Assembly (NCBI GenBank): GCA_013388925.1
Contig: JACAEJ010000073.1
Location: 1 to 38,387, forward strand
DNA from: Nitrososphaerales archaeon
GTDB taxonomy: Archaea > Thermoproteota > Nitrososphaeria > Nitrososphaerales > JACAEJ01
DNA length: 38,387 bases
Direction: 5' to 3'
The notes under the pieces: generated by a model
Database searches by the model: none
Told to the model about the DNA's origin: nothing
The model's input: only the letters and a program-made list of their open reading frames with translations
Shown: one piece after another, positions 16,075-32,664 of the stretch
Layout of the letters: each line of letters starts with the position of its first letter
How positions within the stretch are numbered: position 1 is the first letter of the stretch
Program-made: the position numbers and the translations under genes

Positions 16075-17733
16075 TTATCCCCAGTATCCAACTCCCAAGC
16101 ACTTTGCGAGTCTTATGGCGTTCTTTTCATCGTTTTCTGTCAATCTGCTAGCCTGAAACTTCTCGCTAAAGTAGAGATAATCAGCTATGCTACGCCTATC
16201 CGCCATCTTCTCAAAGACTAGCTTTGGATGCTCAAGGTCTCTGCTGTAGGCTGCGTTGGTCAAGACTATGGCCTGATCCACCCTTCCATGCTCGACTATC
16301 TCCAGGGTATCGTCTATCTCCTGTTTCGTGAGACATTCCTTCTCTGTCAGCTTCACATTAACAGCTATCTTCCTGCCATCCTTCTCCTCGAAGTATGCAT
16401 CTGCTAAGCGGAAGCTCTTCGATCCCCCTGGAGTATCTATGCGTCTTGAAGCCCCATGGGCATAGAATATGGCTTCTCTTATGAACAGGTATCGCCCCAA
16501 GTCCCTTATCGCCCTAGTAAGACCATAAGAGGTCTCTTCAAGGGTCTTCATACTCGTCCTAATGATCCTAAGGTAGTCTGGTATAGGGATGCGCATTATG
16601 CTCCCCTTCAGCTCTGCGTTGGGTCTTATTCGAATTATGGCCCCTATCAGGTGCTCATCACCTATCCTATTGGTCCCCTTGGCCAATTCTAGTGCTTCTC
16701 TTATCAGAGCAAGTAATTCTCGAATTTCGGTCATGCCCACTTCGTCGTAAGCATACCTTATGAGATTCCTTAGTGCCTCACCGTCTTCCTCCGTAATGAT
16801 GGCGCTATGGAACTTTAGATACTCTCTTATGATGTCCCAGATTTGTTCGGGATCGTCGGGCTGTGAGAGAGAGCAAGTGAAGGGTGCCTTTCTAAGGCGA
16901 TCATATAAAGAGGGGTCTGCCTCGCCTATCTCCGTCTCCACTCCCGATCTTAATATGGAAACCAGAACTACCCCTGGAAGCTTTTCGTTTATCATGGCCT
17001 TCATGCCGTCCATCAAAGGCTTGGTAGCTGAGATTTCGTCTATTTCTATAAGCAAGACTTTGCCAATGATGCATGTGATGGTAGCAAGCCCTTTCAGCTT
17101 TTCCAGAGCATCGTTAAAGTCCTTTGCCTCCAGAAACCAGAGAGAATCTTTGGATAGAATCCTGAGGGCTGATTCTAGTGCACAATTTTCAGCCAGCTCG
17201 GGCAAGGTTCCCTTAAGATATGATAAATTCATAGTCCTTCTCTTGTTGATGATGTTTTCAGCTATACTGCTGGCTCTTCTTCCCAGTATCCTATCGAATA
17301 GGCCGATCTTTAGCACTTTCATCGCGTAGTCATTTCCCTCTTCTGCTCTTTCACCCAGCTTTAGGATAAGCCCATCATGTAACTCTTGAAAGAAATCATT
17401 CCTAAGGTCCTTGACTATGGCCGAGTAGATACTTTTGAGATCCTTAGGCTCGATTCTTGTAAGGTCTACGTATGCACATTCGAACTTGTCCTTTAAAGTT
17501 TTCATGTGAAGAGCGAGATGAGTCTTCCCAGTTCCCAAGGGTCCCACTATGCTCACTATGCTGAAAACCTGCTCTCCCCTGAGCATTGCCTCTCTCAACT
17601 CATCAACACAAACTAGGATTCTATCTCTGACTTCTTTCCACCTTCTACCTCCGAGCACTTTTGCAGCAGTAAGGCTAGGAGTTGGTACATGGGAAAATGG
17701 GTTAATACTTAGCCCGTAGGGGTATTCTGCCAT
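16075..17733 (-). CDS. AAA/P-loop ATPase with putative PD-(D/E)XK-like C-terminal domain
   Basis: Walker A 'GPLGTGKTH', Walker B 'VLLIEIDEIS'; C-terminal 'RLADAYFEEKDGRKIAVNVKLTE...GRVDQAIVLTNAAYS'. Confidence 0.8.
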   Translation of the reverse strand: MAEYPYGLSINPFSHVPTPSLTAAKVLGGRRWKEVRDRILVCVDELREAMLRGEQVFSIVSIVGPLGTGKTHLALHMKTLKDKFECAYVDLTRIEPKDLKSIYSAIVKDLRNDFFQELHDGLILKLGERAEEGNDYAMKVLKIGLFDRILGRRASSIAENIINKRRTMNLSYLKGTLPELAENCALESALRILSKDSLWFLEAKDFNDALEKLKGLATITCIIGKVLLIEIDEISATKPLMDGMKAMINEKLPGVVLVSILRSGVETEIGEADPSLYDRLRKAPFTCSLSQPDDPEQIWDIIREYLKFHSAIITEEDGEALRNLIRYAYDEVGMTEIRELLALIREALELAKGTNRIGDEHLIGAIIRIRPNAELKGSIMRIPIPDYLRIIRTSMKTLEETSYGLTRAIRDLGRYLFIREAIFYAHGASRRIDTPGGSKSFRLADAYFEEKDGRKIAVNVKLTEKECLTKQEIDDTLEIVEHGRVDQAIVLTNAAYSRDLEHPKLVFEKMADRRSIADYLYFSEKFQASRLTENDEKNAIRLAKCLGVGYWG

Positions 17734-28153: not shown

Positions 28154-29371
28154 ATGTCATCTCCAAATATATATGCATTGAGATATATCAGGCAAGATTA
28201 TATTTTAGTAACTCATATAGGCATGTTTCTACATCGAAAAGTTATGGTAACGATCTCCGATAGAATCCTATTGCTTTTATCAATAAAAGAGGAGGGGAAG
28301 CGCATAGGTATAGACCATATATTTGAGAAGGTTCGTCGTGATATATTATTCGTAGAGAAAAAAGGGATCAGTAGAGAGGAAGTGGAGGTCGAAATAAGAA
28401 ATCTGATTTCTCAAGGACTTGTAGAGCGTTTTGGGGATGGCTTCTCTTTGAGCAAGGAAGGGGACAAGATCATGGAGAAATTAATTCTTGAAAAGGAGAA
28501 GGAATTGAACCGTTCCTACACCCTGGTCTGGTTAGCCAAGAGGTACTACCCCCATGTAGCGAGATTGATGATCCCCTTCCTTAAGGGCAGAGCGGTGTCT
28601 GCAGTCAAAATATTCTCTGGGAAAAAGGATCCTATAAAGGAGGTAGATGCCATCTTCGTCCGTTATACCAAGTACAAGCCCAAGCCAGTATTCCTGACCA
28701 TAGACTCAGAGAGTAAGCTAATGTCTCTAGTGTTCGATCATTGTGTAGACTTTATACCTTACGTGCACAAGCTCGATTCCAATGAGCCAGATTATTTTAT
28801 TCTTGATCTCGATGCTGGGTCAGAGATAATGAAAAATCCAAAAGCCTTTGATCTTATCAAGTACATTGCCTCTGAGCTTTTGATCCTTCTGACCGAGTTG
28901 GGAGTTGAAAGCGTAGCCAAGTTTAGTGGCTCAAGAGGCTTTCAGGTGTGGGCCAGCTTCGATAATAGTGAATTGAAGGATAGAGGGGACTTGTTCAAGA
29001 CATACAGAGAGATGGCAATAGTCATCCAAGGTAAGTTAGAAGATAGGCTTCAGGGGAAGATTGGCGATTTGGTTGCCATGTTCCCAAGTATGGTGCGCCG
29101 TGATAGGCAGATAACAACATCAGTTGTAGCCCATAAGGAGGAGAGAGCTTCTCAAGTACTGGTTGATTGGTCGGCACTAAAACCAATGGGAGATGTTAGG
29201 GCACCTTTTTCTATCCACTACAAGACGGGCCTGGCATCGGTTCCAATACATATAGGTGAAATTATGAGCTTTGACGTAGGAGATGCCCACCCACTAAGGG
29301 TTATTGAAGATCTTGACAGATACGAAAGAGTGGCGAAAATGGAAAGGTGTAGCCCCCCAAGGCTCCTTTGA
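28154..29371 (+). CDS. Archaeo-eukaryotic primase superfamily, LigD-type polymerase domain, with N-terminal winged-helix-like extension
   Basis: 'YYPHVARLMIPFLKGRAVSAVKIFSG', 'DSNEPDYFILDLDAGSE' (DxD), 'KFSGSRGFQVWASF', 'VDWSALKPMGDVRAPFSIHYKTGL'. Confidence 0.82.
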   Translation: MSSPNIYALRYIRQDYILVTHIGMFLHRKVMVTISDRILLLLSIKEEGKRIGIDHIFEKVRRDILFVEKKGISREEVEVEIRNLISQGLVERFGDGFSLSKEGDKIMEKLILEKEKELNRSYTLVWLAKRYYPHVARLMIPFLKGRAVSAVKIFSGKKDPIKEVDAIFVRYTKYKPKPVFLTIDSESKLMSLVFDHCVDFIPYVHKLDSNEPDYFILDLDAGSEIMKNPKAFDLIKYIASELLILLTELGVESVAKFSGSRGFQVWASFDNSELKDRGDLFKTYREMAIVIQGKLEDRLQGKIGDLVAMFPSMVRRDRQITTSVVAHKEERASQVLVDWSALKPMGDVRAPFSIHYKTGLASVPIHIGEIMSFDVGDAHPLRVIEDLDRYERVAKMERCSPPRLL

Positions 29372-32043: not shown

Positions 32044-32664
32044 TCATCTAATGATGAGAATCGTGTCCAACATACCATCAAGTTCATTAAGAAGGCCTGA
32101 AAATTTGTCTATCGGTACTACAGGCACTCCATCTAATAGGATTACCCGTTCGCTATAGAGCGTAACTATTAACGGGATTGCATAAGACATCCCAAGACGC
32201 CCAGCCTTTTCACTTTTCACAAGCTCCTCAGATCTTTTGATCTGGGCTCTAGCTACCTTAGATATGCCAGATAACCCTACTGTATGATGCCAATGCTTGC
32301 AATCTATAGCCAAACCTCTCATATCTCTAACTGCCAAGACGTCTATCTCCATCCTAGGATGCTTTAGCCGAAAGTTCCTGTAGACTCTGTAGTTATTGCT
32401 AGCCATTACAAAAGAAACGAGCTCTTCAAAATCTTTCCAGCTTAGGAATTTTGAGACTTCTTCGATGCTAGAACCCAGCTTTACAGTTAAAACGGAGGAT
32501 AATACCCTAGACCCCTTCTCGAATCTAACTTTTTTCCCATCGATTCTGGCTATATTTTCAACTTCAAGAAATCTTAAAGCTTCTAACAGTGCTTCAGGAT
32601 CCAGCCCGCACCTAGAGGCCATTTCCATAATATGGTGCTCTCCATCTGTGATGTATGGAATCAA
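32044..32664 (-). CDS. Putative PD-(D/E)XK endonuclease-fold protein with N-terminal helix-turn-helix-like region
   Basis: 'WKDFEELVSFVM..NNYRVYRNFRLKHPRMEIDVLAVRDMRGLAIDCKHWHH' matches the E...EIDVLA...xCK pattern. Confidence 0.75.
   Translation of the reverse strand: MIPYITDGEHHIMEMASRCGLDPEALLEALRFLEVENIARIDGKKVRFEKGSRVLSSVLTVKLGSSIEEVSKFLSWKDFEELVSFVMASNNYRVYRNFRLKHPRMEIDVLAVRDMRGLAIDCKHWHHTVGLSGISKVARAQIKRSEELVKSEKAGRLGMSYAIPLIVTLYSERVILLDGVPVVPIDKFSGLLNELDGMLDTILIIR

Follow-up and report, generated by a model that had tools for sequence, protein, structure and literature searches.

A standalone LigD-type polymerase with a winged-helix N-terminus in Nitrososphaerales belongs to a separate archaeal clade and may fill short gaps in DNA repair

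How archaea that lack Ku, and in many cases also polymerases of families X and Y, fill short gaps in their DNA is poorly known. The window analyzed here, a 38,387-nucleotide contig from the metagenome-assembled genome (MAG) of a Nitrososphaerales archaeon, encodes a polymerase that raises this question. From its letters the original prediction described a standalone LigD-type polymerase/primase (AEP) with a winged-helix-like N-terminus, and considered roles in repair, primer synthesis, or a mobile element. At issue is whether the protein is a domain of canonical non-homologous end joining (NHEJ) that has simply been set free, and which of these roles it may serve.

The open reading frame that was first listed exists, but its start was probably placed too far upstream (Table 1). 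Because the alignments of most relatives begin only at residues 28–31 of the 405-aa frame, several relatives have stop codons upstream of this point, and the TATA-like sequence CCAAATATATATG falls inside the listed frame, the first ~23–30 codons are probably not translated, and the gene most probably begins at 28244 (or 28223) rather than at 28154. Residue numbers refer to the 375-aa form of the polymerase throughout, unless the longer frame is named. The genes closest to it in the window are not repair genes but encode an ABC transporter and a flavin-binding protein; the window also encodes TBP, a CDC48-type ATPase, and lysyl-tRNA synthetase, which is an ordinary housekeeping context. A 552-aa AAA ATPase on the reverse strand (16075–17733) has weak Pfam matches only. 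An Mrr-like nuclease lies close to the polymerase in 12 loci and was considered as a dedicated partner; this candidate was dropped and the nuclease regarded as a syntenic neighbor, because it is widespread (99 of 121 genomes of the order), mostly in genomes without the polymerase.

Table 1. Positions of the polymerase gene, its domains and motifs, and a conserved neighbor in the window.
Feature	Position	Strand	Description
ORF as first listed	28154..29371	+	405 aa from first ATG; PF21686 match
Probable coding sequence	28244..29371	+	375 aa; 28223 is an alternative start; placed by the limits of relatives' alignments
TATA-like CCAAATATATATG	28163..28175	+	Read from the sequence; within the listed ORF, upstream of the probable start; putative promoter element
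Winged-helix domain	28244..28504	+	Residues 1–87; AlphaFold and Foldseek; HTH_45 and MCM_C winged-helix matches in some members
LigD_Prim-Pol / AEP catalytic domain	28541..29284	+	Profile-matched residues 100–347
DFIPYVH motif	28748..28768	+	Residues 169–175; Ile171 in the column of the ribonucleotide-selecting His of LigD PolDoms
Motif I, D188-L-D190	28805..28813	+	Catalytic metal ligands; invariant 44/44
Motif II, SGSRGFQ	28925..28945	+	Residues 228–234; Gln234 replaces the usual His
Motif III, third catalytic Asp D308	29165..29167	+	Invariant 44/44
Mrr/PD-(D/E)XK-like nuclease	32044..32664	-	Pfam Mrr_cat; conserved neighbor in Nitrososphaeria; also in polymerase-less genomes

The LigD-type pattern is not due to chance, as the reading frame matches the Pfam profile LigD_Prim-Pol (PF21686) well over its cut-off (67.8 bits against 27.4; E 1.4e-18) across residues 130–377 of the 405-aa frame. 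The same profile matches every one of the 44 members of the family alignment, which were drawn from Nitrososphaeria, other Thermoproteota, Njordarchaeota, Hadesarchaea, Aenigmarchaeota, and one Methanocellales MAG. The PriS profile (PF01896) stays below its cut-off (21.5 versus 26.8 bits), and the NCBIfam equivalog model ligD_pol gives 50.5 bits against an equivalog cut-off of 214.7, a wide shortfall that first hinted at a relative diverged from ordinary LigD domains. A PF21686 match was also seen in a Methanocaldococcus control genome.

An AlphaFold model based on the 44-member alignment (mean pLDDT 95, pTM 0.92) predicts an AEP fold with the third catalytic aspartate, D308, in the sequence, so that the original assignment to this superfamily stands. 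The best Foldseek match of the whole model is the Pseudomonas aeruginosa LigD PolDom (2fao, E 5e-12), and all 16 top PDB matches are LigD PolDom, Prim-PolC, or the Methanocella Pol (5dmu), ahead of any PriS. The N-terminal part is modeled as an H-H-H-beta-beta-H arrangement (pLDDT about 93–95), and when folded alone it best matches the winged helices of MotA, MarR, and PadR, with E-values of 0.003 and weaker that are consistent as to fold class. The winged-helix (wHTH) character proposed for the N-terminus was thereby confirmed in the model.

The DxD...D triad (D188, D190, D308) is invariant among the 44 members, and the motifs quoted in the original prediction, among them DLDAG and KFSGSRGFQVW, are all present and are kept in relatives at 50–76% identity. 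Motif II has the consensus SGSRG[FIM]Q, in which Gln234 occurs in all 44 members and aligns with the invariant His of canonical LigDs (SGxxGxH). This Gln is not an artefact of the search, since 11 members from one Thermoproteota family, which were recovered by profile and not by the GFQ pattern, also have it. A His in motif II was seen solely in one partial homologue (G446), which is located at a contig edge, has no visible wHTH, and lies outside the alignment. Residue 171 is Ile in 39 members and Val in 5, and Ile171 aligns with the His (P. aeruginosa His651, Mycobacterium tuberculosis His111) that touches the ribose 2'-OH and causes the ribonucleotide preference of LigD PolDoms (PMC7072297); this correspondence was obtained by hhalign against canonical LigDs (probability 99.5) and by HMM alignment to 2fao. 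In the profile alignment, Asp317 (Asp in 40 of 44 members, Leu in 4) aligns with the Ser/Thr that forms another 2'-OH contact in LigD PolDoms. The mapped residues suggest that the preference for ribonucleotides may be weakened in the polymerase. In Prim-PolC, the segment before the YY helix bears phosphate-pocket residues (PMC7442782). The profile alignment of the archaeal family to canonical LigDs starts only at the YY helix, and the preceding segment is without a counterpart and has the winged helix in its place; the canonical 5'-phosphate pocket may be absent.

A scan of contigs located 35 loci in Nitrososphaeria, Thermoprotei, other Thermoproteota MAGs, Bathyarchaeota, Njordarchaeota/Asgard, Hadesarchaea, a Methanocellales MAG, and Aenigmarchaeota. 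Occurrence is patchy, with the gene in 13 of 121 genomes of the same order, and in a sample of the phylum strong matches (>200 bits) were found in 18 of 398 genomes, 14 of which belong to the Thermoproteota family f20. The window's own family within Nitrososphaerales includes Candidatus Methylarchaceae, as shown by one of its loci (L075, genome G004). A carrier labeled 'Deltaproteobacteria' was rejected, as its 3.5 kb contig (L099) has Aenigmarchaeota synteny and is probably a mis-binned archaeal contig. The phylogenetic tree splits in two: the wHTH sequences group with a few divergent AEPs (support 95), and bacterial LigDs group with the LigDs of family f8 (Nitrososphaeraceae-type, judging by gene content), the Methanocella Pol, and Prim-PolC (support 100). 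Only this split between wHTH and canonical sequences was used, because the PriS outgroup and one LigD (L217) suffered from poor alignment or wrong boundaries and the PDB sequences had been pieced together from alignment blocks. As far as alignment and phylogeny can tell, the polymerase is not a canonical NHEJ domain simply set free, and instead represents a separate archaeal clade outside canonical LigD, Methanocella Pol, and Prim-PolC with altered active-site and DNA-end-binding features. No earlier description of this family was found in open-access text. In another Thermoproteota family (f38), two divergent AEP-like proteins of ~300 aa (L185:5103-6011 and L186:3268-4182) have a weak profile match; the one in L185 has no Pfam match, and because by eye it has DIK in place of DxD at motif I and a degenerate motif II, these proteins may be inactive relatives.

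The claim that no Ku or ligase is nearby is correct for the window, and the polymerase indeed stands outside any NHEJ operon, as none was found in the host genome. For the genome as a whole it holds only in part. Ku was not detected by profile search in this MAG, but the genome encodes a LigD-type 3'-phosphoesterase (contig C21) and two ATP-dependent ligases (C2 and C53), neither of them a dedicated LigD-type ligase fused to the polymerase or in its operon. The C53 ligase bears the ligase N-terminal domain of replicative-type ligases, and the C2 ligase is 55% identical to a ligase of the Methanocellales MAG (L091) that also has this domain. An intein that contains a LAGLIDADG homing endonuclease (TIGR01445, PF03161) interrupts the phosphoesterase gene (L105:4157-5581); in relatives the gene is continuous at the same site. 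In the relative G012, a standalone phosphoesterase sits beside an Lhr-type helicase and an ERCC4 (XPF-like) nuclease (L109:2891-6490), possibly as an excision-repair cluster.

Within the order, a second ligase accompanies the polymerase in 12 of 13 carriers compared with 46 of 108 non-carriers (Fisher p 6e-4, uncorrected for shared ancestry), and the phosphoesterase occurs in 10 of 13 versus 42 of 108 (p 0.01, likewise uncorrected). The second ligase as a specific partner was not upheld, and its co-occurrence with the polymerase is at most suggestive, because 58 of the 121 genomes have a second ligase and phylogeny was not corrected for. Repair genes neighbor the polymerase in several other lineages: endonuclease V is near the polymerase in eight Hadesarchaea-clade loci, an EndoIII/HhH-GPD-type glycosylase in eight loci of family f20, and in the Methanocellales MAG an ATP-dependent DNA ligase gene overlaps the polymerase gene. 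As loci within a lineage share ancestry, these contexts amount to about three independent associations, and about half of the lineages have no repair neighbor. The operon downstream of the polymerase in Aenigmarchaeota was also considered as a set of repair genes and was rejected, being a cluster for a type II/IV secretion or pilus ATPase.

Since the polymerase is standalone, carries an extra DNA-binding module, and comes from a genome in which no Ku was found, it probably fills short gaps in other kinds of repair. We therefore consider it moderately likely that it is a chromosomal archaeal AEP repair polymerase that fills short gaps independently of Ku in this lineage, a reading drawn from homology, alignment-mapped residues, and genome context. 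The winged helix would bind duplex DNA, its putative substrate, beside a gap or end derived from damage, and the AEP domain would extend the 3' end by one or a few nucleotides through two-metal catalysis with D188, D190, and D308. A separately encoded ATP-dependent ligase would then seal the nick, and the standalone LigD-type 3'-phosphoesterase may serve as an end-cleaner. By analogy to mycobacterial Prim-PolC, the pathway would most likely be Ku-independent excision or short-gap repair, for which Prim-PolC/LigC in base excision repair offers a precedent (PMC5663958).

Alternatively, the enzyme may serve as the polymerase of archaeal end joining, together with Ku in some lineages and through a Ku-less or microhomology-mediated route in the host. 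Four Ku-bearing genomes among the carriers, two of the Hadesarchaea clade (G493, G498) and two Aenigmarchaeota (G499, G500), have the wHTH polymerase as their sole PolDom over cut-off, which makes an end-joining role plausible there; a LigD-type ligase gene adjoins Ku in three of the four, and the ligase tested from these carriers scored 281.7 against an NHEJ-ligase cut-off of 227.75. The phosphoesterase of the host genome would also suit end joining. However, these four are the only Ku-bearing genomes among 33 carriers checked from several lineages, none of the sampled members of the window's family has Ku, and the polymerase was not adjacent to Ku in the loci read. The N-terminal segment that binds 5'-phosphate in canonical enzymes has no counterpart, and f8, a sister family within the order, relies on a canonical NHEJ system, with a full-length LigD (phosphoesterase-ligase-polymerase) in six loci read and Ku beside it in two of them (L205, 2-637; L209, 4348-5208). 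The end-joining reading as a whole is rather unlikely, though worth keeping in view.

Primer synthesis, the other role raised originally alongside repair, would make the protein a PrimPol-like enzyme for repriming or lesion bypass at stalled replication forks, which we regard as improbable. Such a role would fit the AEP fold and the likeness of a C-terminal stretch (VRAPFSIHYKTG) to replicative primase small subunits, and loss of the ribonucleotide-selecting His could favor dNTPs, as in PrimPol and PriS (PMC7072297). Nevertheless, the nearest folds and profiles are repair PolDoms and not PriS or PrimPol, no zinc-finger domain was found in the polymerase, the neighbors that show a pattern are excision-repair genes, and the patchy distribution within the order also argues against it.

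That Ku-dependent NHEJ operates in the host and the Ku gene is merely missing from an incomplete MAG (94% complete, 89 contigs) is very unlikely, as Ku is also absent from six other sampled members of the family (93–96% complete) and from the carriers G012, G018, and G031 (98–99% complete). Among 34 further relatives beyond the family, the only hit was a weak Ku-like match of about 24–27 bits in a distant family of the order (L015, G016), which leaves the host and 40 relatives without Ku apart from this one match. Although numerous AEPs of archaea reside on mobile elements (PMC5862659), it is hardly credible that this one is the primase of such an element or of a phage, given that no relative was found in 50,697 phage records or in viral contigs, that the window has a housekeeping context, and that synteny around the gene is conserved between genera.

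The short-gap repair reading may be extended, tentatively and with more doubt than for the host lineage, to the family as a whole. A widespread archaeal Prim-Pol family would have given up ribonucleotide selection and the N-terminus with which NHEJ polymerases bind 5'-phosphate, gaining a winged helix in exchange, and would act as the short-gap polymerase of a dispersed Ku-independent excision repair with EndoV, an EndoIII-like glycosylase, a LigD-type phosphoesterase, and ATP-dependent ligases, being used also for end joining in Ku-bearing Hadesarchaea and Aenigmarchaeota. A conserved archaeal wHTH Prim-Pol clade near excision-repair genes would be a candidate for gap filling in Ku-less archaea, and its conserved Gln and Ile, each in the place of a His of repair Prim-Pols, offer a handle on sugar choice and end binding in the superfamily. 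The gene is also a starting point for the study of DNA repair in those Nitrososphaerales that are not ammonia oxidizers.

Among known systems, Prim-PolC (PolD1, LigC-associated; M. smegmatis 5op0, 6sa0, and 6sa1) was the second-best Foldseek match and is likewise an AEP repair polymerase unfused to a ligase, which acts in Ku-independent excision repair and whose gene lies beside a glycosylase gene in some mycobacteria (PMC5663958). It differs in having no winged helix, in its 5'-phosphate pocket, 2'-OH-contacting His122/Thr240, and motif II His, in its preference for ribonucleotides, and in being operonic with LigC (PMC7442782, PMC5663958). The NHEJ polymerase of Methanocella paludicola (5dmu) is also encoded by a standalone archaeal LigD-type gene with a separate phosphoesterase, but its gene shares an operon with those for phosphoesterase and ligase (PMC4797286), and the protein has the N-terminus and His residues of canonical enzymes and groups with bacterial LigD PolDoms. 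The bacterial PolDoms themselves (M. tuberculosis 2iru, P. aeruginosa 2fao) have PF21686 and the catalytic Asp triad in common with the archaeal polymerase, whereas they are fused to ligase and phosphoesterase, recruited by Ku, without a wHTH, and equipped with the motif II His and His111/His651. Archaeal and eukaryotic PriS share the AEP superfamily and the C-terminal APFSxHxKTG motif with the polymerase, but differ in their profile, which the polymerase matches only below cut-off, and the host encodes a separate PriS on another contig (C70).
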